Source of the DNA: Planctomycetaceae bacterium UBA4732 | Lineage (GTDB): Bacteria; Planctomycetota; Planctomycetia; Gemmatales; Gemmataceae | Assembly (NCBI GenBank): GCA_002404095.1 | Contig: DHJA01000294.1 | Span: forward strand, 12,886 to 39,423 | Direction of reading: 5' to 3' | DNA: 26,538 bases | In this document: positions 2,436-15,291 of the stretch, piece by piece | How the letters are laid out: each line of letters starts with the position of its first letter | Position numbering within the stretch: the first letter of the stretch is position 1 | Translations under genes and position numbers: made by a program | The notes under the pieces: generated by a model | Seen by the model: only the letters and a program-made list of their open reading frames with translations | The model's database searches: none | Told to the model about the DNA's origin: nothing

Positions 2436-3293
2436 ATGACCAAGGTCTACATCAACGGCAAATTCTTCGACAAGGCCGACGCGCGCATCAGCGTCTACGA
2501 CCACGGCCTGCTCTACGGCGATGGCGTTTTCGAGGGCATTCGCATCTACGGCAGCCGCATCTTTCGCCTCCACGAACACATCGAACGCCTCTACGAGAGC
2601 GCCAAGCACATCGCTCTCGAAATCCCGCTGACGCGCGAACAGATCATGGAAGCCGTCCGCGGTACGGTGCAAATCAACGATAAAAAGGATGGTTATATTC
2701 GCTTGGTGGTGACGCGCGGCGCCGGCGGCCTTGGCCTCGACCCACGCAAGACGACCGATCCGCAAATCATCATCATTGTCGATGATATTAGTATGTATCC
2801 GCGCGAACTGTACGAGAACGGCCTGGAAGTCATCACGTCCAGCTACATCCGCCCTCCCTCCAACGCGCTCAATCCGCGTATTAAGTCCCTTAATTATCTG
2901 AATAATATCCTGGCCAAGATCGAGGCCATCCGGGCCGGCTGCCTGGAGGCGATCATGCTCAACGGCAACGGTGAAGTCGCTGAATGTACGGGCGACAACA
3001 TCTTTCTCGTCAAGCGCGGCGTCCTCAAGACGCCGCCGGCGCATGCCGGCATCCTCGAAGGCATCACGCGCGGCGTGATTATGGAGTTGGCCGTCGCGGC
3101 CCAGGTGCCGCTTCAGGAAACGACGCTGACCCGGCACGACGTTTACACCGCCGACGAGTGTTTCCTGACGGGCACGGGCGCCGAGATTATTCCGGTGGTG
3201 ATGTGCGACGGCCGCGTCATCGGAACCGGCAAGCCGGGGCCGATCACCCGGCAATTGCGCGAGCGCTTTCAAGAGGCCGTGCGGCAGGACTAA
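2436..3293 (+). CDS. ilvE: Branched-chain amino acid aminotransferase (PLP fold type IV)
   Basis: It catalyses transamination of leucine, isoleucine or valine with 2-oxoglutarate, the last step of branched-chain amino acid synthesis in the cytosol. In the 285-residue product, GDGVFEGIRIY (28-38) is the IlvE signature, Lys150 in PRIKSLNYLNN is the expected PLP Schiff-base lysine, GE followed by AECTGDNIFLV (180-192) is the conserved substrate/PLP region, and ECFLTGTGAEIIPV (241-254) binds the PLP phosphate. The length is shorter than E. coli IlvE (about 309) and close to the short archaeal and planctomycete forms. The ATG at 2436 has GGAGGG seven bases upstream; the longer open frame upstream runs through the palindrome and is rejected. 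A D-amino-acid or 4-amino-4-deoxychorismate lyase activity within fold type IV is less likely given the GDGVFEGIR motif. Confidence 0.9.
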   Translation: MTKVYINGKFFDKADARISVYDHGLLYGDGVFEGIRIYGSRIFRLHEHIERLYESAKHIALEIPLTREQIMEAVRGTVQINDKKDGYIRLVVTRGAGGLGLDPRKTTDPQIIIIVDDISMYPRELYENGLEVITSSYIRPPSNALNPRIKSLNYLNNILAKIEAIRAGCLEAIMLNGNGEVAECTGDNIFLVKRGVLKTPPAHAGILEGITRGVIMELAVAAQVPLQETTLTRHDVYTADECFLTGTGAEIIPVVMCDGRVIGTGKPGPITRQLRERFQEAVRQD

Positions 3294-6038: not shown

Positions 6039-6139
6039 GGAGCACCTCTGTTCCAGAAGGGCGGGGAAACCCCGCCCCTACAGCGGTTCTTCCGTAGGGG
6101 CGAGGTCTCCTCGCCCCCCTTCTGGAGCAAACTCCTTAG
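6035..6139. repeat. Palindromic repeat of the GGGCGGGGAAACCCCGCCCCTAC family, copy A
   Basis: CTAAGGAG (6035-6042) and CTCCTTAG (6132-6139) form the outer arms; TTCCAGAAGGGCGGGG and the facing CGCCCCCCTTCTGGA form the inner arms, with GTAGGGGCGAGG in the right half mirroring CCCCGCCCCTAC in the left. The outer arm includes the stop codon of the MBOAT gene, and the element ends just before the Shine-Dalgarno of the next gene. A near-identical copy lies at 8306-8387 inside a coding region. Confidence 0.88.
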
Positions 6140-6156
6140 TCGCAAGGGAGGTTGGA

Positions 6157-7335
6157 ATGAATCCCCAGCCGCGTAGAAGCCAGAAGGCTGCTCACATTGT
6201 CCTCGTCATGCTGTTCGCCGCCGCCATCGCCTTGCCGGGGTTGTGCTCGCTCTTCGGGTTGTCCCCGGCGTCGGCCTTGCAAGAGAAGCGCCGGCTCGCG
6301 TCCTTTCCCGCATTTCGGTTGAGCCGGGGGGTGCTTCTGGCCTTCCCCCAGGCGTTCGAGACTTACTTCAACGACCACTTCGCCTTCCGCGATCAACTCG
6401 TGTGGGGATACAACTGGACCAAGGCGCAGTGCCTGGGAGTTTCCCCTTGTCCCAACGTTCTCATCGGCAAGGAAGGATGGCTTTACTACCGGGACGGCTT
6501 GCGGGATGGGAGCCACGCCGTCCTCCCCCTTAAGCAAGAGGAGTTGGCGCGGTGGACTACGGCGCTTGAAGAGAGGCGGCAGTGGCTGGCGGGCCGGGGC
6601 GTGCGATTCCTCGTCGTGGTCGCCCCGGACAAGCACACGATTTACCCTGAATATCTCCCTGAGACGGTGAAGCCGCTGCCGCGCGAGAGCCGCCTCGACC
6701 AGCTAATGGCGTACGCGCCGGCCCACTCCCACCTGTCGATCATCGATTTACGCGAGCCGTTGCTCCGCGCTAAGAGCGCGGCGCGAGTCTACCACAAAAC
6801 GGATAGCCATTGGAATGAGCAGGGGGCGTTCGCCGGCAATGGGCGCATTGAGGAAGCTCTGGCCGTGTGGTTCCCGCGGATTCATCCGCTTTCGCGATCC
6901 TCTTATGCTCCAATTGCCGTGGAGGCGGAAGGGGGCGACCTGGCGGCCATGCTGGGATTGCCCGGATCCTATCGGGAAGAGTATCTGTCCCTCATGCGCC
7001 GCGGTCCCCAACTGGCCCACGCGGCGGCAATCGATGCGGCCCTACCGGCGCGCACCGACCTGCCCGAGTATGCGAAGCCATCGGCCTTCGAGAGTGGCCG
7101 GGACTTCTTCCCAAAAGCATTTTTCTACCACGACTCCTTTGGGAACGGCCTCAAGCCATTCCTTTGCGAACATTTTTGTCGGATTGTTACTATTCAGCAG
7201 AACACTTTCGACGCCGCCCTTGTCGAACGGGAACACCCTGACGTCGTCTTGTACGAGTTCGTCGAGCGCAGCCTGGCGTTCCCGCCGCCGGGCAACGATT
7301 TCCTGTCTGCCGCAGCGGGTACAGGGGGGCCGTAA
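6157..7335 (+). CDS. AlgJ/AlgX-like SGNH acetyltransferase-type protein
   Basis: This is the periplasmic partner of the MBOAT enzyme, expected to transfer acetyl groups to a polysaccharide. The 392-residue protein starts with an N-terminal TM/signal anchor (about 12-35) and has no lipobox. The AlgX/AlgJ SGNH-fold motifs are visible: GKEGWLYYRDG (104-114), VVVAPDKHTIYPEYLP (153-168), the Asp-x-His pair Asp216/His218 in TDSHWNEQGAF, and the nucleophile Ser327 in YHDSFGNG. A GGGAGG Shine-Dalgarno lies five bases before ATG 6157. It follows the MBOAT gene by 118 bases containing a palindromic repeat, so the two are probably co-transcribed. It lacks the C-terminal carbohydrate-binding module of AlgX and so is closer to AlgJ or AlgV. 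The family call is firm; the substrate is unknown. Confidence 0.88.
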   Translation: MNPQPRRSQKAAHIVLVMLFAAAIALPGLCSLFGLSPASALQEKRRLASFPAFRLSRGVLLAFPQAFETYFNDHFAFRDQLVWGYNWTKAQCLGVSPCPNVLIGKEGWLYYRDGLRDGSHAVLPLKQEELARWTTALEERRQWLAGRGVRFLVVVAPDKHTIYPEYLPETVKPLPRESRLDQLMAYAPAHSHLSIIDLREPLLRAKSAARVYHKTDSHWNEQGAFAGNGRIEEALAVWFPRIHPLSRSSYAPIAVEAEGGDLAAMLGLPGSYREEYLSLMRRGPQLAHAAAIDAALPARTDLPEYAKPSAFESGRDFFPKAFFYHDSFGNGLKPFLCEHFCRIVTIQQNTFDAALVEREHPDVVLYEFVERSLAFPPPGNDFLSAAAGTGGP

Positions 7336-7382
7336 TCAACAAGAAGGAAAGTCCCTTCGCTCGACCCACCCTACAAAGCCAC

Positions 7383-8117
7383 CTACCCGAACCAATAAAT
7401 CCTCACAAAAAATCGTGCAAAGAGCGCCAGAAGGAATAGCAACCAGCAAGCGTCGATCGCGATCGTCCCATAGAGCCACGGCATCAACCGGAGGCTGATC
7501 TTGCCCTGATAGAACGCGAGCCGTACCAGCAACCAGAGCGAATACGGACTGAGGACGCCGAACAGCGACGACCGAAACGCCCGGCGCACCAAGTCGTCGC
7601 CGACAAGCGTTTCCATGTCCGGCACGTCGAAGTCGCCATCCAGCGCGGACGGCATGGCCTCAAGCGGCTCGTCGGCCGTGATCTTCTCCAGCTTGGCGAC
7701 CGGCTCTTCTTGAACCTCCCACGAGACCGGACTCCGTCGCGGAGCGGCCGTCACGGCGAGCGAATCCCGCGCCGCCGGCCGCGGCGTCTCGCACGCCGGG
7801 CAGAAGTCCAGGTCGTCGCTCACGGCGTCGCCGCACAGCGGGCAAAGCCACAAGACCGCGTTGTCTACAGACTCGGCATCGCTTTCATCCGTGGGACGGT
7901 CGAAATGGGGCGCGAGGATTTCGGCGGCGCGTTCCGCGTCGGCTTCCGCCACCTGAAGCCGGATTTGTCCGCCAAGTCCCTGCACGCCCGAGAAGACGTT
8001 GACGCTCTCGCCGCCGGTGAGAAACGCCTTAATTTCTTCCGCTTCGAGCAGGCCGCGCGCCAGCTGGGCCTCGACGGGCATGTTGAAGGCCGCCACGAAG
8101 ACGAGTTTGTCGGACAT
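7383..8117 (-). CDS. DUF2007 plus zinc-ribbon membrane protein
   Basis: The 244-residue protein begins with a DUF2007-type domain (residues 2-71; the family name is putative signal-transducing protein), recognisable in KLVFVAAFNMPVEAQLARGLLEAE cut across 4-27 and in the LQVAEADAERAAEILA repeat end. A zinc ribbon follows, with Cys92-x2-Cys95 and Cys106-x2-Cys109 (LCPLCGD, FCPACE). After a Pro/Ala/Glu-rich linker there are two or three C-terminal hydrophobic helices (about 189-203 and 212-238). I chose the start at 8117 because TGGAG lies nine bases upstream and the DUF2007 domain begins there; the open frame continues far upstream but through the neighbouring gene. The role is unknown. The layout suggests a small membrane-tethered protein that binds zinc and perhaps a ligand through DUF2007. 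Confidence 0.82.
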   Translation of the reverse strand: MSDKLVFVAAFNMPVEAQLARGLLEAEEIKAFLTGGESVNVFSGVQGLGGQIRLQVAEADAERAAEILAPHFDRPTDESDAESVDNAVLWLCPLCGDAVSDDLDFCPACETPRPAARDSLAVTAAPRRSPVSWEVQEEPVAKLEKITADEPLEAMPSALDGDFDVPDMETLVGDDLVRRAFRSSLFGVLSPYSLWLLVRLAFYQGKISLRLMPWLYGTIAIDACWLLFLLALFARFFVRIYWFG

Positions 8118-8181: not shown

Positions 8182-8286
8182 TTAATATACACCCACTTCC
8201 GCCTCCCCGCCAAATCCGTTCTATAGTTGCACATCGGCGGAAACTCCGTCCCGTCCGCGTTCCATCGAGGGTTGGGAGAAGAAGAT

Positions 8287-10986
8287 ATGAGGATGCACTT
8301 GGACACTGTTCCAAAAGGGCGGGGAAACCCCGCCCCTACAGCGGTTTTTCGTAGGGGCGAGGTTTCCTCGCCCTCCTTCTGGAACAGATTCTTATTGCAT
8401 GGCTCTCTGGTGCTGACCGCGGTCGGGCTGACGGGTTGCGGCGGCGCCCCGGCCATCGTCGCGTCGGATACGCCACAAGAGGAAGTCGCCCGCCTCGGCG
8501 ACAAGACCGACGTCAACCTGGCAAATTGGCTGAAACAGCCGCGGCCGGAACTGGCCCGGCGCGTCGCCGAATGGACCGACGTCGTTCAGAAACAACGGCT
8601 GCACGCCCGCGAAAACCCGCTGTCCGTGGACCTGTTGCCCGCGCTGCAACCGCCGGCGACGATGCCAGTTTTCCGCGAGGCATCCTACTCCGAGAAAGCC
8701 GGCTTCAGCCTGCCTCCTTACGTCAAAGCCGGCGACGTGGATGCCGCCCTTGCGCTGCACCTGGCCCGATTCGGCGACCGTGAGGCCGCTCTCAAAATAA
8801 GTGACCCGGCCGACAAAGACCGTCGTACAGAACCTAACTATCCCGTCGAGTGGACGCAGCTGACCGCGTTGGCGTTCCAGTCGGCGGAGTGGAAGCTGGC
8901 TACGGGCGATCCGCAGGGAGCTACCGACCTCATTCAAATGCACCAACAGCTCCGCGCGCTGCTCGACGACAAAGCGGCCGCCGGGCCGCTCGGCGCCGCT
9001 TTGCTGCCGCGCGGCCGCCATGCGCTCGCCGAAGCGGCCATCGCATGGAAGAAGTCCGGCGTCAATAAGCCGGGATTTGCGGAAGACGCCGAGGCCGCAC
9101 TGAAGGCGTGGGGCGAGTCGCCGCCGCCGGCCCTCGCGCTGGCGCCGGGCGCCGGCCAGGCCGAGGCCGTCCGCCTTTTCCAGCGACCGGCCAACGGCCA
9201 GACCATTGCGGCGGCCGAGCCGATGGCCGTCCAGCGCGCTCTCGATCTGTTGGCATTGCCCGTCCCCACTGAGGGTGTGCAGGCCGTCGTCGCTTTCTTC
9301 GACGCCGATAAACGCCTGACCGAAACGCTCGTCCTCTACCGCGCCAACTTCGTCCAGACTTATCCGGATCCGGTAAATCTTGCTTACGATCTCGTCGATC
9401 ACGCGCTGCCCGGCGACGACCCTGTCAAGGGAGTCGGCCTGACGCGACGGACCTACTCCGGCGACGGATTGAAGTACGAGGCGGTGCTGTTCAGCCGCGG
9501 CGACGCGCTGGGCGGCTACGTGCGCATCGCCGGTGCCAAGGCGGCGCCGACGGGAAACCTGCCGCCCGACGCGCGCGACTTCGGCGTCGTCCACCTCGAC
9601 CAAACCTTCGAGCAGAATCGCGTCCAGTTTGCCCGCGACAGAATAGGCCCCATAGTAGAGAGAGATTTGCGAAAATCGTCTAGCGCCGTCCGTCTGCCGA
9701 TCGTCAATCCGGCGCCGAGCCGGGCCGCGCTTCAGCGCGAGAAGGACCAGAACCTGACCTCTTCGTTCGCATTAAGTTGGCCGTTGGACGAAATGCCGAC
9801 CGCCGCGACTCAATTGGCCGTGCCGCTGGTGGGCGCTTACGGCAGTCCGCGCATCGACGGCGTGGCCGACCCCGACGGCGATTACGTCGCCTTCGTCTGG
9901 GAAGACGCACGGACGCGGCTGACGTTACGGCTGCCCTATGAATCGAACGGGCCGATGTTGACGGCGGAGAATCGGCCTAGTTCCGATGGCGCCGACGCCC
10001 GCGCCGCGGAGACGTTCGATCTGTCCGGGCGCAAGGCGAGATGGGATGCGGGTAAGCCGCTGCGCTGGCTGCCGCGTTCGCGGGAGTTGCCTGAAATTCA
10101 ACTTGGCATGACGAGAAAGCAAGTACTGGACAATCTACCCCGCAAGGCGTCGATCATTCAGCAGAACCTTGGCGGCGGCCTATCGCTTCTCTTCCGAGAC
10201 GCGCCGGCGTCAGAGGCGACGTTCTTCGTCCGTCAGATGTTCCTACGTTTCGGCCCGGACGACCGCTTGGCCGAGATTCGCGTGCGCTATCAGGAAGGCC
10301 CGGCCCGGCCGGACGAGCATCACCTGTCATTACTTGCCGCGCTCAAGAAGAGCGGCGGCGAACCGCAGTCGCTGCCGGCGCCGTGGGCAGGTTTGTGGGC
10401 GGACCTGCCGGAGCGAGAGCCGAAAGCCGCGCTTTACCGTTGGGCGGATGACACCACCTTATTGACTTGTCAGCGCGACGCCGGCGGCGCCGAGGTGACG
10501 CTGCGCGACTGGCCGGCCGGCGTGACGGCGGAGCAGGCGGCGGAAGCGTTGCCGCCACTGCGTTTCTGCGACGATGGCACGGCTGGCGTACTCCTGGGCC
10601 AGACCCGCGCCGACGTACTCAAGAGGTTCCCCAACCACAAGCCGGTGGAAAACGAGGACGCGATCGCGCTGGCCCCATCCGCCGACAGTCCCTATGAGAC
10701 ATTGGCGGTCTGGTTTGACGCCGATAAGGTGACGCGCATCGTGGCCCAGCACAAGGCCAGGCCGCGCGAGGCGGCGGAGGTGACGACGAAAATGCAGGAG
10801 GCGTGGGCGCGCGATTTCGACCATCTGGGAGCGCTGCGGCGCGAGGACGGTGCGGCCGGTTCGATTTTGCAAGCCTACGGCTGGCACGACGACAAGGTGC
10901 GCGTGCGCCTGTTGGCGCAGGAGACCGCCGACGGGCCTCGCCTGTTCACCGAATGGCGCCATTGGCCTGTCGCGGCGAAGCGCTGA
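8287..10986 (+). CDS. Large lipoprotein of unknown function with a repeat-disrupted signal peptide
   Basis: The product is 899 residues. A lipobox LTGC (Cys51) follows a hydrophobic stretch FLLHGSLVLTAVG, so the mature protein should be a lipid-anchored envelope protein. I see no known catalytic domain. The C-terminal third holds two related segments, IQLGMTRKQVLDNLP (about 612-626) and VLLGQTRADVLKRFPN (about 775-790), each with the G-x-T/S-R-x-x-V pattern of BamE/SmpA-like folds; this resemblance is tentative. ATG 8287 has GGGAGAAGAAG upstream and is preferred over the upstream ATG 8227. Residues about 7-34 are encoded by a palindromic repeat (8306-8387), lengthening the n-region of the signal peptide abnormally. 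A TTG at about 8397 could give a short normal signal peptide instead. The gene's 3' end is duplicated as a relic at 12116-12169. Confidence 0.8.
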   Translation: MRMHLDTVPKGRGNPAPTAVFRRGEVSSPSFWNRFLLHGSLVLTAVGLTGCGGAPAIVASDTPQEEVARLGDKTDVNLANWLKQPRPELARRVAEWTDVVQKQRLHARENPLSVDLLPALQPPATMPVFREASYSEKAGFSLPPYVKAGDVDAALALHLARFGDREAALKISDPADKDRRTEPNYPVEWTQLTALAFQSAEWKLATGDPQGATDLIQMHQQLRALLDDKAAAGPLGAALLPRGRHALAEAAIAWKKSGVNKPGFAEDAEAALKAWGESPPPALALAPGAGQAEAVRLFQRPANGQTIAAAEPMAVQRALDLLALPVPTEGVQAVVAFFDADKRLTETLVLYRANFVQTYPDPVNLAYDLVDHALPGDDPVKGVGLTRRTYSGDGLKYEAVLFSRGDALGGYVRIAGAKAAPTGNLPPDARDFGVVHLDQTFEQNRVQFARDRIGPIVERDLRKSSSAVRLPIVNPAPSRAALQREKDQNLTSSFALSWPLDEMPTAATQLAVPLVGAYGSPRIDGVADPDGDYVAFVWEDARTRLTLRLPYESNGPMLTAENRPSSDGADARAAETFDLSGRKARWDAGKPLRWLPRSRELPEIQLGMTRKQVLDNLPRKASIIQQNLGGGLSLLFRDAPASEATFFVRQMFLRFGPDDRLAEIRVRYQEGPARPDEHHLSLLAALKKSGGEPQSLPAPWAGLWADLPEREPKAALYRWADDTTLLTCQRDAGGAEVTLRDWPAGVTAEQAAEALPPLRFCDDGTAGVLLGQTRADVLKRFPNHKPVENEDAIALAPSADSPYETLAVWFDADKVTRIVAQHKARPREAAEVTTKMQEAWARDFDHLGALRREDGAAGSILQAYGWHDDKVRVRLLAQETADGPRLFTEWRHWPVAAKR
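8306..8387. repeat. Palindromic repeat of the GGGCGGGGAAACCCCGCCCCTAC family, copy B, inside a coding region
   Basis: CTGTTCC (8306-8312) and GGAACAG (8381-8387) are the ends of an 82-bp element closely matching copy A at 6035-6139 through its core (AGGGCGGGGAAACCCCGCC then CCTACAGCGGTT). It lies in the 5' end of the lipoprotein gene and is read in frame, giving KGRGNPAPTAV in the predicted protein. This peptide is the translation of the repeat, not a natural signal-peptide sequence. Confidence 0.9.
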
Positions 10987-11015
10987 CGGGTTCAACGGCC
11001 TTTGCCTCATTTCTG

Positions 11016-11049
11016 GGAACGCTCGCTTTGAAAGCAAAGCGAGCGTTCC
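11016..11049. terminator. Perfect 15-bp hairpin after the lipoprotein gene
   Basis: GGAACGCTCGCTTTG (11016-11030) pairs exactly with CAAAGCGAGCGTTCC (11035-11049) around an AAAG loop, 30 bases after the lipoprotein stop codon. There is no downstream T run, so intrinsic termination is uncertain; it may be another dispersed palindromic repeat that serves as a transcript end. It separates the lipoprotein gene from hicBA. Confidence 0.55.
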
Positions 11050-11168
11050 TAAACAATCGACCAACCGATAGAATACTACCGCAGACGTTCCTCCAGCCAC
11101 AGGGGCAGGGAAGCCGGTTTCGTCTGCCAATCCGCGGGTTCGCGCGCCAAACGCACGAGGAGACGCAC

Positions 11169-11459
11169 ATGCCGGCTGAAACGATGGGAAACGCCAAGCA
11201 AGAGTCGCCGGCAATGTATAAATTCCACGTCCTTCTTACGAAGGATGACGAGGATTCCTTTTCCGCCGTCGTGCTGAATCTTCCCGGAGCCGGTAGCTGC
11301 GGGAGTAAAGAGGAAGAGGCGATGGAGAACGTGAGGGAAGCCATCCGGGGTGTTCTGGAATCTTATAAGGCCTCTGGAGAAGAAATTCCCTGGAAAGACT
11401 CCTCAGCGGCGGAGATTCCTCCGGGCGCTAAGCAAAAGTGGATCATCTTAAATGTCTAA
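11169..11459 (+). CDS. hicB: HicB-family antitoxin (short form)
   Basis: The 96-residue protein is the probable antitoxin of a type II HicBA system, neutralising the adjacent HicA RNA-binding toxin. It has the HicB partial RNase H fold pattern: KFHVLLTKDDEDSFSAVVLNLPGAGSCG (18-45, seen as two strands and the conserved LPGAGSCG turn), followed by the EEAMENVREAIRGVLESY helix. It lacks a C-terminal DNA-binding helix-turn-helix, as in many short HicB proteins. ATG 11169 is preceded by GAGGAG with about seven bases spacing; ATG 11214 would remove a poorly conserved 15-residue leader and is an alternative. It overlaps hicA by eight bases, indicating coupled translation. The order antitoxin-then-toxin is common for this family outside enterobacteria. 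Confidence 0.85.
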   Translation: MPAETMGNAKQESPAMYKFHVLLTKDDEDSFSAVVLNLPGAGSCGSKEEEAMENVREAIRGVLESYKASGEEIPWKDSSAAEIPPGAKQKWIILNV

Positions 11460-11679
11460 GGTTCCACGACTCTCTGGCGCCGAAGCTGTGCGCGCTTTTG
11501 GGAAGGCTGGCTTTTATCTCGACCGTATCACCGGCAGTCATCACATCCTGAAGAAGGACGGCCACCGCCACAGGCTGTCGATCCCAGTACATAAAGGCAA
11601 AACAGTCGGAGTAGGATTGCTGAAATCGCAAATGGACGCCGCTGGTCTCACCGTGGATGAGTTCTTGAAACTCCTTTGA
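11452..11679 (+). CDS. hicA: HicA-family toxin (predicted mRNA interferase)
   Basis: The 75-residue protein has the double-stranded-RNA-binding-like HicA fold. The family cleaves mRNA and arrests growth when free of HicB. Key features are SGAEAVRAFGKAGFYLDR (8-25), the active-site histidine in GSHHIL (His30), and the GVGLLKSQMDAAGLTVDEFL helix at the C-terminus. Length and motif order match the family. It starts inside the end of hicB. A degenerate copy of its first ~60 bases lies at 13100-13160, suggesting that the locus was once present twice. Confidence 0.88.
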   Translation: MSKVPRLSGAEAVRAFGKAGFYLDRITGSHHILKKDGHRHRLSIPVHKGKTVGVGLLKSQMDAAGLTVDEFLKLL

Positions 11680-11706
11680 TTTACCGACAAGATTAACGCA
11701 ACGCCC

Positions 11707-11745
11707 TCAAACCCCGAACCTCCTCAACGCCTCCCTGTTTAACTC
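11707..11745 (-). pseudogene. Relic of the 3' end of an enolase-superfamily gene
   Basis: Read on the minus strand, these bases encode ELNREALRRFGV and a stop. The intact enzyme at 13724-14839 ends ELNREALKRFGV and a stop. By eye 31 of 39 bases match and only one of twelve residues differs, so most changes are synonymous. No further coding is visible upstream of the relic. It sits 28 bases after hicA, in the same relative position and orientation as the intact gene relative to the hicA relic at 13100. Confidence 0.75.
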
Positions 11746-11764
11746 AGAAGGCAGGAGTAGGTCC

Positions 11765-12094
11765 ATGATTCTCTCATCGAATCTCTTCACCGACCTCCCC
11801 GGGCGCTTGCCCGACGAACTTGTCACCACGCTGCTCGAAACAGCAGGCGTGCGAATCGAGCGGATCGTTTCCAACGGTCACGCATCGCCCGAAGACTTTT
11901 GGTACGACCAGGAGCAGCATGAGTGGGTCATGGTACTGAGAGGAGCGGCGCGGCTTCGCATGAAGGACGAGGAACAGCCAATTGAGATGAAACCGGGCGA
12001 TTTTGTGAACATCCCGGCGCACACGAAGCACCGGGTCGAGTGTACGGACCCGGACGAGCCGACCATTTGGCTGGCGGTCTATTACGGAGATTAG
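11765..12094 (+). CDS. Small single-domain cupin protein
   Basis: The 109-residue protein is a single beta-barrel cupin. Cupin motif 1 is around GHASPEDFWYDQEQHEWVMV (38-57) with His52 and Glu53 as likely metal ligands, and motif 2 is PGDFVNIPAHTKHRVE (77-92) with His86 and His89. The family (ERIVSNGHASPEDFWYDQ, EPTIWLAVYYGD) is widespread in bacteria as an uncharacterised cupin; no substrate can be named. ATG 11765 has GGAG ten bases before it. It lies between the enolase-family relic and the lipoprotein relic, exactly at the inferred duplication junction, and so may have arrived with or after the duplication. Confidence 0.82.
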   Translation: MILSSNLFTDLPGRLPDELVTTLLETAGVRIERIVSNGHASPEDFWYDQEQHEWVMVLRGAARLRMKDEEQPIEMKPGDFVNIPAHTKHRVECTDPDEPTIWLAVYYGD

Positions 12095-12115
12095 CGGTGA
12101 GCGCCGACCTGGGGC

Positions 12116-12169
12116 GGGCCGCGTCTGTTCACCGAATGGCGCAATTGGCCCGTCGCGGCGAAGCGCTAA
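12116..12169 (+). pseudogene. Relic of the 3' end of the large lipoprotein gene
   Basis: The bases encode GGPRLFTEWRNWPVAAKR and a stop. The intact lipoprotein ends DGPRLFTEWRHWPVAAKR and a stop (to 10986). Over 10942-10987 versus 12125-12170, 43 of 46 bases match by eye, and the stop codon has changed from TGA to TAA. Upstream of 12116 the similarity is lost. This is a truncated duplicate, not a functional gene. Confidence 0.85.
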
Positions 12170-12200
12170 CGCATGTTGCTTCGCACCGGTTCGGTTCACC

Positions 12201-12210
12201 TGATAGAATA
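12201..12210 (+). promoter_or_regulatory. Possible -10 element of the HEPN-like/BolA-like pair
   Basis: TGATAGAATA lies 42 bases before the ATG at 12252. A matching CGATAGAATA (11066-11075) precedes hicB. The shared decamer may be a -10 region (TAGAAT) kept from the duplicated segment. No good -35 box is visible in either case. Confidence 0.3.
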
Positions 12211-12251
12211 AAGCTGAACGCGGTCCCGACGAATGCCGGTAGGATCCTGCG

Positions 12252-12779
12252 ATGGACTTCCAGCCCAAGGATTACTATGAGGCGGCCTCCGACCGAATGG
12301 ACCAGGCCGATTTGCTGTACTCGCTGGCTGCAGAGTACTGCCAGGGCCTTGAGGATCGGCGATACGCCTGGGTCGTTTACTCGGCCGGCCTTGCGGTTGA
12401 GTGCATGTTGCGGGCCTACATACGCAGGGTGACTAACAAGTTCAGCAGTAGGCACGACTTGTCGAGGCTGTTCGTCGAAAGCCGGCTGGACACTCGCGTT
12501 GTAGAGCATCTAGGTAAGCAGGGATATGACGCCGGGTCGCCAGTAGTCGTTGAGCGCTTGACTCGGCTCTATGCGGCCGCTGGCGTAGTTGCCAGGATTT
12601 GGCGGAACAACTACCGCTTCGCGTCGGATGGGGTGCTGATCAGAGATTTCTTAGATCGGAAGGTCGTCCGGGCGCGGGATAACAAAGGCGCCAAAGCCCA
12701 AGTGCTACGAAAGCAGGCGCATTTGCTGCTGTTAGGCGCCGGGACAATCATTAAGGCGGGGAAAGAAGCATGGACCTGA
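12252..12779 (+). CDS. HEPN-like alpha-helical protein
   Basis: The 175-residue protein is all-helical and resembles HEPN-domain proteins. An amphipathic helix YYEAASDRMDQADLLYSLA (8-26) is followed by YAWVVYSAGLAVECMLRAYI (38-57), the core 'A-G-x-A-x-E-C-x-L-R/K-A' helix of the fold. HDL (68-70) and then WRNNYRF (117-123) occupy the place of the C-terminal W...RY motif. The RNase motif R-x4-6-H of toxin-type HEPN proteins is not seen, so it may be non-catalytic or use another site. It overlaps the next gene by ten bases. Associated HEPN proteins often act in toxin-antitoxin or defence modules, but that role is inference here. I am fairly confident of the fold class, not of the function. Confidence 0.6.
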   Translation: MDFQPKDYYEAASDRMDQADLLYSLAAEYCQGLEDRRYAWVVYSAGLAVECMLRAYIRRVTNKFSSRHDLSRLFVESRLDTRVVEHLGKQGYDAGSPVVVERLTRLYAAAGVVARIWRNNYRFASDGVLIRDFLDRKVVRARDNKGAKAQVLRKQAHLLLLGAGTIIKAGKEAWT

Positions 12780-13099
12780 CCGAAAAAATCCGTGCCGCAT
12801 TCGCCAGCCTCCTAGGGTCCGCGCCGCCGGTCGTCGTTAAGGTTAAGGCCGTCGGAGACCGTGTGTTGGTCTATGTGGTGTCGCGGGCGTTCGTCCACCA
12901 GTCGCCCTTAAAGCGACAGCGGCTCGTCAGCAAGGCGCTGCGAGGGACCGACTCCTCGCTTAGCTCCGCTGAACAACACCGCATCGGATTGGTGCGCACT
13001 TTCACCCCTGGAGAGGCCGGCAAGATCATCCAGCGCCGCAAGGCCCGCCGTGCGCAATCGGCTCCCGATCCTGTGTCGGACAAAGCGTCCGGCGGTTAA
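12770..13099 (+). CDS. Small protein with BolA-like motif pattern
   Basis: The 109-residue protein has a layout like BolA: an N-terminal helix DLTEKIRAAFASLLG (2-16), then VYVVSRAFVHQSPLKRQRLV (34-53), followed by SAEQHRIGLVRTFTPGEA (66-83). The K-R-x-R-L-V block (48-53) and the H-x-x-x-L...T-x-T-P-x-E segment (70-82) match the conserved BolA helix-turn-helix and C-terminal strand patterns. The metal-cluster loop of BolA is not evident, and the last ~25 residues are a basic, disordered-looking tail. It starts within the end of the HEPN-like gene (overlap 12770-12779), so the two are translationally coupled. A HEPN/BolA-like pair is not a combination I know. Family membership is a visual judgement and needs a profile search. 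Confidence 0.5.
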   Translation: MDLTEKIRAAFASLLGSAPPVVVKVKAVGDRVLVYVVSRAFVHQSPLKRQRLVSKALRGTDSSLSSAEQHRIGLVRTFTPGEAGKIIQRRKARRAQSAPDPVSDKASGG

Positions 13100-13160
13100 A
13101 AGGTTTCACGAATCTCTGGCGCGGACGCCGTGCGAGCTTTTAAGAAGCGGCTTTTATCAC
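13100..13160 (+). pseudogene. Relic of the 5' end of hicA
   Basis: The bases encode KVSRISGADAVRAFKK, against KVPRLSGAEAVRAFGK at the start of the intact hicA (11452). The match then loses two bases and continues with CGGCTTTTATC (hicA has TGGCTTTTATC). There is no ATG and the frame breaks. The relic starts immediately after the BolA-like stop codon, and its end overlaps the next gene's Shine-Dalgarno. Confidence 0.8.
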
Positions 13161-13172
13161 GGAGGAGCCGCT

Positions 13173-13703
13173 ATGCTTGCTATACTGAAGTCTCCCAAAG
13201 TTTGGCTCCTGTTGCTCATAGCCGCGGGCTACATATTCCTGCCAAAGCTGCTTCCACCCCGCTTCGAGGAAAAGATCAGCTGGCACCCTGAGGGACGGAA
13301 CTGGTTTGGACAACCCGGGTGGACCGCTTTCGTCTACGCCGCCGGATTGCTGATAATATTATGCGCCTTGCGATTTCTTATCCTCCGGAAGAGCCGTGGT
13401 CCAATCGATGCGGCCGCATGGTACTGTCTGGTACTGTCGGTATTCGTGCCTGCCGTGTGGCTGCTTGTGGTAATAGACTGGGACAACGAGGCGGTGGCCG
13501 AGATAGCCTGCTGGGTTGGCTATCCGATCGCCCTGCTCTTCGTTCCTACTGTCGTGTTCTTGTTCGATCTGATAACGCACACATCTCTCGCCCCTGGCGT
13601 TTACCTACTTAGGTCGGTGGGCGAAATCTGCCTGTTGGTCCCGGCTTGGTGTATGGTTTGGGTTTATATTGAATTGTTGATCCTGGGATGGGTCGGTTTC
13701 TGA
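13173..13703 (+). CDS. Hypothetical membrane protein
   Basis: I recognise no family. The 176-residue protein has about five hydrophobic helices (roughly 8-26, 48-70, 80-101, 111-135 and 145-173) joined by short polar loops; the first is followed by a longer polar loop with KLLPPRFEEKISWHPEGRN (25-43). A strong GGAGGAG lies five bases before ATG 13173. It is 73 bases after the BolA-like gene and might belong to the same transcript. It ends 20 bases before the convergent enolase-family gene. Its position inside the accessory patch makes it a candidate membrane partner of the HEPN/BolA-like pair, but nothing in the sequence shows this. Confidence 0.65.
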   Translation: MLAILKSPKVWLLLLIAAGYIFLPKLLPPRFEEKISWHPEGRNWFGQPGWTAFVYAAGLLIILCALRFLILRKSRGPIDAAAWYCLVLSVFVPAVWLLVVIDWDNEAVAEIACWVGYPIALLFVPTVVFLFDLITHTSLAPGVYLLRSVGEICLLVPAWCMVWVYIELLILGWVGF

Positions 13704-13723
13704 AACGAGAATCCGCTGGCGGT

Positions 13724-14839
13724 TCAAACTCCGAACCGCTTCAGCGCCTCCCGGTTCAGTTCAATTCCCAGTCCCGGCGTATTGGGCACGGTCAAATATC
13801 CCTCCGCGTCCGGCCGGAACGGCGTCGTAACCAGTTCATCCAGATACGGCGACGGCGTAAGGTATTCGACGTAGCGCGCGACGGGTATCGCGGCCGTCAG
13901 ATGCAGGTCGGCGGCCAGGCCGATGGCCGTGTTCCAGCCGTGCGGCACGTACAGAATGTTGTGTTCATACGCCATCCAGGCGATGCGCCACGCCTCCGTG
14001 ATACCGCCGCATTTCGTACAATCCGGCTGGATAATGTCCACGGCATGGCGTTCCAGAAACGGCCGGAAACTTTGCCGTCGCGTCAGTACTTCGCCTGCGG
14101 CAATCGGCACCGGCGAATGGCGCCGCAGCTCGATGTAGCCTTCCAGGTCGTCGGGCGGCAGCGCCTCTTCAAACCAGACCACGTCATATTGAGCGAGCAT
14201 TTTCGCCGTTTCCAGCGCCCATTTGTAGCCGTGCGGCCAGAATTGTTCGCTGCCGCCGGCGTCCACCATCAACTCCACGTCCGGCCCGACGGCGTCGCGG
14301 GCCGTTTGCATCAGCAATTCGTCGGTGCGCCGGTCGCGCCGGCCGAACGGCCGCCAACCCAGCTTGATCGCCTTGAAGCCGCGCGCCACGGTCTGCCGCA
14401 GCGTCTCGGCCAACCGCGGCGGTTCGTCGAAAAGGATCGAGCCGTAGGGTTTGATGCGCGTGCGGTAGTTGCCGCCCAAGAGGCGCGACACTGGCTGCCC
14501 GCAAATCTTCCCCATGAGATCCCATAAGGCGATGTCGATGCCGCTGATGGCGTGCTCGACCGCCCCGCCGCGGCCCTGCCAGAACGTCGATTGCCGCAGC
14601 TTCTCGCTGACGCGGGCCGGCTCGTCGGCGCGTTCGCCGATCAGGTGCGGCCGCAACAGGGCGACCGCCGCCGTGACCAGCGCCTTGCTCGTCATGGCGC
14701 TGCCGACGCCGACAAGCCCCTCGTCGGTGACGACCTCGACGATGGTGTTAAGGTCTTCCTCCGGCTTCATGCCGCCGGGCCAGCCGCCGTCCACCGTGCC
14801 GCCCGACAAACCCGTTATTTTGACATCGACGATCTTCAT
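13724..14839 (-). CDS. Enolase-superfamily enzyme, mandelate racemase/muconate-lactonizing subgroup
   Basis: This is a cytosolic acid-sugar dehydratase or related enzyme of unknown specificity. In the 371-residue product the metal ligands are Asp193 (MVDAGG), Glu224 (WFEEALPPDD) and Glu250 (IAAGEVL). Lys159 in AIKLGW is the candidate active-site base and His300 in YVPHGWNTAIG matches the catalytic histidine of the mandelate racemase subgroup, with the partner Asp273 in IIQPDCTKCGG. The length fits the family. I chose the start at 14839 because AGGA lies nine bases upstream; ATG 14845 is only three bases from it. panD lies 23 bases upstream on the same strand, so the two are probably co-transcribed, though no pathway link is obvious. 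Its 3' end is duplicated as a relic at 11707-11745. Confidence 0.88.
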   Translation of the reverse strand: MKIVDVKITGLSGGTVDGGWPGGMKPEEDLNTIVEVVTDEGLVGVGSAMTSKALVTAAVALLRPHLIGERADEPARVSEKLRQSTFWQGRGGAVEHAISGIDIALWDLMGKICGQPVSRLLGGNYRTRIKPYGSILFDEPPRLAETLRQTVARGFKAIKLGWRPFGRRDRRTDELLMQTARDAVGPDVELMVDAGGSEQFWPHGYKWALETAKMLAQYDVVWFEEALPPDDLEGYIELRRHSPVPIAAGEVLTRRQSFRPFLERHAVDIIQPDCTKCGGITEAWRIAWMAYEHNILYVPHGWNTAIGLAADLHLTAAIPVARYVEYLTPSPYLDELVTTPFRPDAEGYLTVPNTPGLGIELNREALKRFGV

Positions 14840-14862: not shown

Positions 14863-15291
14863 TCAACAGGACTTCATGACCGTCTGCGGCCCCGCGATTT
14901 CCGCCGTCCGCCCCGGACGGATGAGGTTGTTCTCGTCCACCAGCACCACGACGGGCCGATATTCCCGCGCCGCCGCGTCTTCCATCTGCGTAAACGTGGC
15001 CACGATCACCAGATCGCCGGGCTTTACCAAATGAGCGGCCGCGCCGTTGACGCACATGATGCCGGAGCCGGCGTCGCCGGTCATGGCGTAGGTGCGCAGG
15101 CGTGTGCCGCGCGTCACGTTCCAGACGTGGACTTCCTCATACGGCAGGATATTCGCCGCCTGAAGCAGCAGCGCATCGAGCGTCAGACTGCCTTCGTAAT
15201 CCACGTCGGCGTGCGTGACGGTCGCCCGATGGATTTTTGATTTGAGCATGGACCGGCGCGGCGGCGGGGGTGCGGCGGGTTGCATGGCCAT
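14863..15291 (-). CDS. panD: Aspartate 1-decarboxylase
   Basis: It converts L-aspartate to beta-alanine for pantothenate and coenzyme A synthesis. The pyruvoyl enzyme self-cleaves between Gly34 and Ser35 (DYEGSLTLD), leaving the pyruvoyl group on the serine. The family start [12 protein letters not shown] is at residues 15-26, and [19 protein letters not shown] (82-100) is the conserved central block. The open frame allows a 14-residue Pro-rich leader before MLKSKIH. The start at 15291 has AGGGA upstream, while the family-typical start at 15249 has no clear ribosome binding site, so the leader may be real. The protein is otherwise full length. It heads an apparent two-gene unit with the enolase-family enzyme. 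Confidence 0.93.

Follow-up and report, generated by a model that had tools for sequence, protein, structure and literature searches.

This analysis concerns a stretch of DNA from Planctomycetaceae bacterium UBA4732 (Gemmataceae; contig DHJA01000294.1), called the window hereafter (the whole 26,538 nucleotides (nt) analyzed), in which the ends of three genes occur twice: a lipoprotein-like gene (L), the toxin gene hicA and an enolase-superfamily gene (E). We propose, with a probability of roughly 0.6, that the stretch records additive recombination, in which a diverged relative's L-to-E junction was placed next to the resident one. Events of this kind seem to recur across the lineage. The observations that carry this proposal are the repeats, their order, their codon pattern, their recurrence and one before/after pair of loci (L073/L074). 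In what follows, L' and E' are relics of L and E, L-numbers are loci, G-numbers are genomes and C-numbers are contigs. The source genome (G000) comprises 6.80 Mb in 299 contigs and is 90% complete and 2.7% contaminated.

Three gene ends occur twice in the window

The genes and relics are arranged as follows (ORF, open reading frame; aa, amino acids):

8227..10986, + strand, L, lipoprotein-like gene, 919-aa ORF; its 3' tip is matched by relic L'
11169..11459, + strand, hicB-like antitoxin gene (PF15919, E-value 3.8e-8)
11452..11679, + strand, intact hicA toxin gene (PF07927, E-value 1.7e-16)
11707..11745, - strand, relic E', final 12 codons and stop of the enolase-superfamily gene
11765..12094, + strand, cupin gene (PF07883, E-value 3.8e-11)
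12106..12169, + strand, relic L', about the final 20 codons and stop of L
12252..12779, + strand, HEPN-domain gene (PF05168, E-value 6.1e-6)
12770..13099, + strand, 109-aa ORF overlapping the HEPN gene (BolA-like gene of the initial annotation)
13100..13161, + strand, relic of the 5' part of hicA, beginning directly behind the stop of the 109-aa ORF
13173..13703, + strand, 176-aa ORF (membrane gene of the initial annotation), no family in Pfam, PADLOC or NCBIfam
13724..14839, - strand, E, intact enolase-superfamily gene (PF13378, E-value 4e-64; PF02746, E-value 8.1e-14)
14863..15291, - strand, panD, aspartate decarboxylase gene (PF02261), upstream neighbor of E

The L pair, found by the repeat search, spans 66 nt at 86% identity (10923-10988 and 12106-12171). 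The hicA pair spans 48 nt at 83% (11458-11505 and 13100-13147), followed by another 13 nt at 92%, shifted by 2 nt. The E pair was missed by the repeat search and was detected by blastn with the last 400 nt of E (33 nt, 84.8%); here the relic on the minus strand encodes ELNREALRRFGV and the intact gene ends in ELNREALKRFGV, 12 codons and the stop in each case. The cupin gene is closely wedged between two relics, 19 nt from E' and 11 nt from L'. The initial annotation, made from the letters of the window, had described these three pairs, and we recovered all of them within a few bases of where it had placed them, in the same shared order and orientation.

Every relic is short, as one would expect if chance or generic family similarity had produced the matches. 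That explanation is virtually impossible. The ungapped scores of the L, hicA and E pairs were 46, 32 and 24, against top scores of 18, 15 and 17 in 1000 target and 1000 query shuffles for each pair, and none of these shuffles attained any of the three scores; on the opposite strand, the pairs scored 11, 9 and 11. The source genome contains 20 HicA-like loci, 19 of them above the family cut-off and one with an internal stop. The hicA relic scored 32 against the hicA of the window and at most 13 against the 19 other loci, so it is specific to its neighbor. We rejected chance and generic HicA similarity on the shuffles and this 19-locus comparison. In the flanks of the HicA-like loci, a 3'-tip repeat was present only at the window's own locus, and L370 gave one 5'-tip row. 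Searching the source genome with 10900-13800 returned only short, weak matches elsewhere.

The codon pattern fits a diverged donor better than duplication in place

The order in the window is L-E'-L'-E, so that the repeat intervals L..L' and E'..E interleave, with the hicA relic in the corresponding place. Independent insertions at L and at E predict the order L-L'-E'-E and were rejected. The interleaving means that a single inserted piece must have borne both an L tip and an E tip; thus, one event bringing a second L-hic-E junction would account for all three relics.

The initial annotation had proposed such a tandem second junction, and this layout stands on the collinear order and the interleaving. 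The history that it preferred fares less well: an in-place tandem duplication of L-hicBA-E in one lineage, with later insertion of the cupin gene, the HEPN pair and the 176-aa gene and decay of the spare copies. The tandem layout, with all three relics in the same order and orientation, speaks for it, as does one relic at locus L074 that drifted faster than its gene. We nevertheless consider it rather unlikely. Two long spare genes would need to have shrunk to their extreme tips, and changed codons are mainly synonymous. In a decaying spare copy, most of the changes that accumulate should be nonsynonymous. The window pairs differ at 20 codons, 12 with synonymous and 8 with nonsynonymous changes, where random single changes predict 24% synonymous (binomial p 6e-4). 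Across 11 gene-relic pairs, the count is 62 of 90, and it becomes 66 of 104 with the relic-relic pair of L046, which taken alone has 4 of 14; L283, L345 and L347 were left out of this count. The copies therefore diverged mostly while coding, as the initial annotation had noticed. Such a pattern is more readily explained by recombination with a diverged relative than by duplication in place followed by decay, and so raises the history that the annotation had named last, recombination with a related strain, above the one it put first.

Duplication in place also lacks its expected ancestor: no single-copy L-hicBA-E junction was found in the 95 family genomes searched, which are fragmentary, so that this non-detection does not prove absence. 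Relatives of L (33-47% identity) occur in 10 other genomes of this set. Eight of these also have an E ortholog, and the two genes always lie on separate contigs (0 of 8 together). The synteny check suggested by the initial annotation thus gave no support to a single-copy ancestor, within the limits of broken contigs. In G011, the 3' ends of L and E are both near contig ends, with no sign of an L-E junction; the end of the E contig overlaps a tip-bearing contig (C1357) by 12 nt and does not overlap the L contig, which is weak evidence of order only. The hicB, hicA, cupin and HEPN genes and the 109-aa and 176-aa ORFs had no match near E or L in the relatives' loci L041-L060.

Truncated ends of the enolase-superfamily gene recur in Gemmataceae

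A truncated 3' end downstream of the intact gene, on the same strand, is a feature that the window shares with relatives. We examined the best 80 of 150 named loci with E relatives. Five of them (L066, L067, L074, L081 and L101) carry a truncated E 3' end downstream on the same strand, and L074 carries two. A search of the 95 family genomes with the last 60 residues of E, which gives minimum counts, together with further comparisons of loci revealed E-tip copies in at least 10 genomes from 8 genera (G000, G011, G023, G043, G052, G055, G088, G103, G104 and G106); the window's genome is one of the 10, and L101 could not be matched to any of them. In G104 and G011, the tip and the gene are on different contigs and their nearness is presumed. 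G103 (C345:22417-22590) and G106 (C352:10074-10241 and 11129-11233) have E tips and no full-length ortholog that we could find; the gene may be lost or lie inside a gap. A further 27 family loci gave 6 rows, of which four came from the genomes of L066, L067, L074 and L081, one was new (G055) and one (L181) did not represent a tip. The initial annotation addressed a single locus; its repeats hold, and the recurrence of partial 3' ends in the genome and the family lay beyond its view.

An E tip lies within 1.5 kb downstream at 5 of 40 Gemmataceae loci, compared with 0 of 29 gyrB loci, 0 of 30 ilvE loci (controls drawn from the 30 best matches each) and 0 of 35 outside E loci. The contrast with the combined gyrB and ilvE loci (0 of 59) gives a Fisher p of 0.009; the gyrB and ilvE proteins are less conserved than E, and conservation may account for it. 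Gene neighbors are common to 34 of 630 locus pairs downstream of E and to 110 of 630 upstream. The tips and relics encode nearly the same C-terminus as the gene, rather than a different new one.

The before/after pair is L073 and L074. In L073, a stretch related to an AF2212-like/PIN gene pair, only partly matched and perhaps broken, begins 22 nt behind E. L074 has the order E, 103-aa ORF, tip 1, AF2212-like gene, PIN gene, tip 2. From the tip of E to 341 nt past its stop, L073 is collinear over 425 nt (80%) with tip 1 of L074 and the sequence behind it. This alignment indicates that, in this one sister pair, the old tip kept its old neighbor and that a new gene came to lie between the old tip and the intact copy. 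In L067, from another genus, E is followed by a gene with TIGR02996 and FGE-sulfatase domains, a 98-codon tip and, behind it, a pair related to that of L074 (68% and 73% identity).

The same comparisons bear on an assembly artefact from mixed strains in a metagenome. Such an error is favored by the 299 contigs of the source genome and by the titles of most named relatives, which mark them as metagenome-assembled genomes (MAG). We regard it as very improbable: G052 and G055 share the arrangement of E, a 188-aa gene (83% identical between them) and a tip of about 30 nt, which argues for inheritance there and not for an assembly accident; between G103 and G104, a shared tip is 94% identical and a shared 547 nt are 92% identical. 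In addition, switching from one strain to another at shared words would not suffice to place a third gene between two truncated tips.

Tip repeats accompany other genes in the source genome

In two samples of the source genome (667,233 bases, window included, and 324,045 bases), we judged nine 3'-tip repeats to be real, two of them those of the window. The others are:

L145, MmeI-type restriction-modification gene
L271, topoisomerase/gyrase A gene
L274, gene for a 1290-aa LVIVD protein
L280, gene for an Fe-S protein
L283, sugar nucleotidyltransferase gene; the match ends short of the stop
L345, 724-aa ORF
L347, 420-aa ORF

These seven led us to reject E as the sole target in this genome. A strictly 3'-end mechanism is weakened by L151, where a confirmed 33-codon 5' tip (7479-7577) lies upstream of an intact glycosyltransferase gene (8239 onward) and mirrors the 3' cases. 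In 44 Gemmataceae loci, no gene other than E gave a case that we judged real. In the comparison DNA, 395 kb of G071 yielded one credible case of another gene (L308). The 400 kb of G048 and the 686 kb of Gemmataceae loci yielded no such case, and 631 kb of other loci, outside Gemmataceae, contained three doubtful rows (L114, L130 and L135), which were not counted. For seven tips in 0.965 Mb of the source genome compared with one in the 2.11 Mb of comparison DNA, p is 0.002, and it rises to 0.03 when the three doubtful control rows are counted. Since the repeats were judged by eye and unblinded, we treat the excess in the source genome as a lead and not as a result.

Before judging, the scan rows, in the order 3' tip downstream, 3' tip upstream, 5' tip upstream and 5' tip downstream, numbered:

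first source-genome sample: 8, 3, 9, 1
second source-genome sample: 2, 0, 2, 3
44 Gemmataceae loci (686,081 bases): 6, 0, 0, 1
36 other loci (631,146 bases): 1, 0, 0, 0
G071 (394,928 bases): 3, 1, 0, 2
G048 (400,000 bases): 2, 1, 3, 1
E. coli (50,000 bases): 0, 0, 1, 0, the single row being rhsD/ylbH; this control is too small to count

This general scan did not recognize the E tips of the window, L067, L081 and L101 as 3' tips; these came from gene-specific searches. We dropped palindromic or dispersed repeats (L149, L272, the second row of L286, L300, L304, L306, L350), a tandem-repeat protein (L083), paralogues or shared domains (L311, L324, L339) and antisense ORFs (window, L067, L074, L347, L330). 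L151 (its 75% row), L159, L277, L288, L314 and L286 (its first row, 29 nt) were set aside as doubtful. A per-gene test on the same strand gave a 3' tip downstream of 16 of 1024 genes and a 5' tip upstream of 7 of 961, with 4 of 961 and 5 of 1024 for the two remaining arrangements; the 16 rows include paralogues (the first row of L145, L151, L140) and palindromes (L148), the L151 paralogues being, we assume, serpin-like. The doubtful rows of L114 (81 nt, 75%) and L130 (25 nt, 96%, ending at the stop, 143 nt distant) came from this test and that of L135 from the general scan.

Two of these loci deserve description in their own right. At L308 (G071:C190), two ORFs on the reversed strand (6064-6519 and 7269-7874) have their last 30 or so codons in common (90 nt, 90%), a possible displaced tip in a sister genus. 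At L288, positions 59-157 and 2933-3031 share 99 nt at 88%; their other strand resembles a common C-terminal tail, one copy ending at a stop.

Cassettes and a model for their arrival

Several of the genes lying between a gene and its tip belong to known families. In the source genome, these cassettes hold HicBA and the HEPN gene (window), a ParE toxin (L280), a PemK/MazF toxin (L347), Uma2 (L274), a weak Imm-NTF2-2 match (L271) and DUF6414 (L145); the profile scan covered the cassettes other than those of L283 and L345. Cassettes at E loci hold PIN genes (L066, L074), a weak PIN match (L067) and proteins of no known family (L081, L101). Toxin-antitoxin genes thus occur at 3 of 8 source-genome sites and 3 of 5 named E loci, figures that come without a background rate.

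A site-specific or other dedicated integration system that lands at gene 3' ends, above all that of E, would explain why the same gene is affected in 8 genera, why, in the cases inspected, homology stops no more than about 16 nt from the stop codon, and why two successive tips stand in L074, L046 and L253. However, the relics range in length from 29 to about 300 nt, with no fixed attachment core, various genes are affected, the L151 case lies at a 5' tip, and the window has no tRNA. Profile scans, which covered part of the cassette ORFs, found no recombinase family among them; an integrase could act from elsewhere. We therefore judge a dedicated system quite improbable.

In the additive recombination that we favor, incoming DNA of a diverged relative, carrying its own L-to-E junction, would pair with the resident gene ends. 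A crossover within these shared ends, either a single crossover of a circularised fragment or an exchange with one homologous and one illegitimate end, would add the junction beside the resident one and not replace it. The product would read gene, cassette, old tip, with one complete copy of each bordering gene retained and the other copy reduced to a truncated tip. In the recurrent version, a small cassette with a copy of the gene end would be inserted just behind the stop, and the old tip would stay downstream with its old neighbor. In this model, we infer the donor, the form of its DNA, the enzymes and which unit of the window is older. The source genome has a comEC-like gene, which permits DNA uptake and does not demonstrate it. 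A spare 3' end would be harmless and a spare 5' end may separate a gene from its promoter, which could explain the prevalence of 3' tips.

Several observations weigh against this model. The tips shared in the window (39-66 nt) are diverged and barely exceed the figure given for RecA-dependent recombination in E. coli, 30 bp (PMC2884548). No donor strain was found, nor a pre-event L-E junction in the 95 family genomes, and the window's codon test is based on 20 codons. At L074, the present gene tip has a closer match (0.955) to the sister gene than relic 1 has (0.909), so that decay after displacement contributes there. Four of the five named tip loci are titled MAG and the fifth has a bin-like name. 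The post hoc, unblinded judging by eye and the three doubtful control rows reduce the apparent specialness of the source genome.

A broader proposal is that gene 3' ends form a general, integrase-free docking surface in the Gemmataceae lineage, with cassettes arriving joined to a gene's last codons and the E end serving as a family-wide site; we consider this unlikely and offer it tentatively. If it were true, each docking would spare the gene and leave the earlier tip and cassette downstream, producing integron-like arrays behind housekeeping genes, with cassettes that are often toxin-antitoxin genes.

Gene content of the window

The adjacent hicA and hicB genes encode HicA and HicB-like domains (PF07927 and PF15919), as in a HicBA toxin-antitoxin system. 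PADLOC gave no match for hicB, hicA, the HEPN gene or the 109-aa and 176-aa ORFs, and the 109-aa ORF had none in Pfam or NCBIfam either. For E, the top NCBIfam model is galactonate dehydratase, at a score under that model's cut-off; panD is beside or near E in three relatives too (L042, L045, L047).

No Pfam or NCBIfam family was found for L, whose name as a lipoprotein comes from the initial annotation. Its N-terminal part also matches contigs C101 and C28 of the source genome, so a dispersed repeat may have been read as coding and the true start may be further in. An inverted pair of about 70 nt (77%; 6047-6116 and 8317-8388) has its second arm within this N-terminal part. Between L and hicB, at 11016-11049, lies a perfect 15-nt inverted repeat with a 4-nt loop that resembles a terminator.

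Comparison with known systems

Displaced tips are a lasting mark of gene gain by a genome. If the pattern holds, a single genome would reveal where cassettes entered, their order of arrival and the relatives that took part in DNA exchange, and this in planctomycetes, mostly known from metagenomes only. It would also suggest a route by which toxin-antitoxin genes spread without a transposase of their own. In a narrow literature search, we found no paper describing tip displacement that affects ordinary Gemmataceae genes, and we do not claim that none is in print.

In the minimal mobile elements of Neisseria, varied genes between conserved neighbors are swapped through flanking homology, in a clean exchange that is not known to leave displaced tips. 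The mechanism behind the wider family pattern looks familiar from rhs loci, where C-terminal displacement is the closest known process. There, homologous recombination with circular intermediates has been proposed, and existing gene 3' ends are displaced and left as arrays of dissociated tips (Jackson et al. 2009, PMC2935791). In rhs, however, the new tip is a different C-terminus, whereas the Gemmataceae gene keeps essentially the same one and gains a neighbor, and the genes affected here are ordinary ones. In the type VI secretion system (T6SS) of Vibrio cholerae, a homologous anchor receives an additional module, with the old immunity gene, and once also the old effector 3' end, moved back, for which the authors suggest homology-facilitated illegitimate recombination (PMC5361080); the effector gene is replaced there, and the bordering gene is kept in Gemmataceae.

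Laboratory and transformation work offers further parallels. In E. coli, single crossovers of circularised linear DNA gave 14 sequenced products with partial duplications (109-950 bp) of the lacZ-end homology, and homology-facilitated illegitimate recombination combines one homologous end with one junction of 3-10 bp microhomology (PMC3240628), but this was a laboratory plasmid fragment under selection. In pneumococcus, merodiploids arise in transformation by tandem duplication stimulated by incoming, partly repeated DNA, on the far larger scale of about 100 to 900 kb (PMC3784515). If the pattern described here holds, tip displacement as known from rhs and T6SS loci would extend to ordinary genes that acquire a neighbor rather than a new end.

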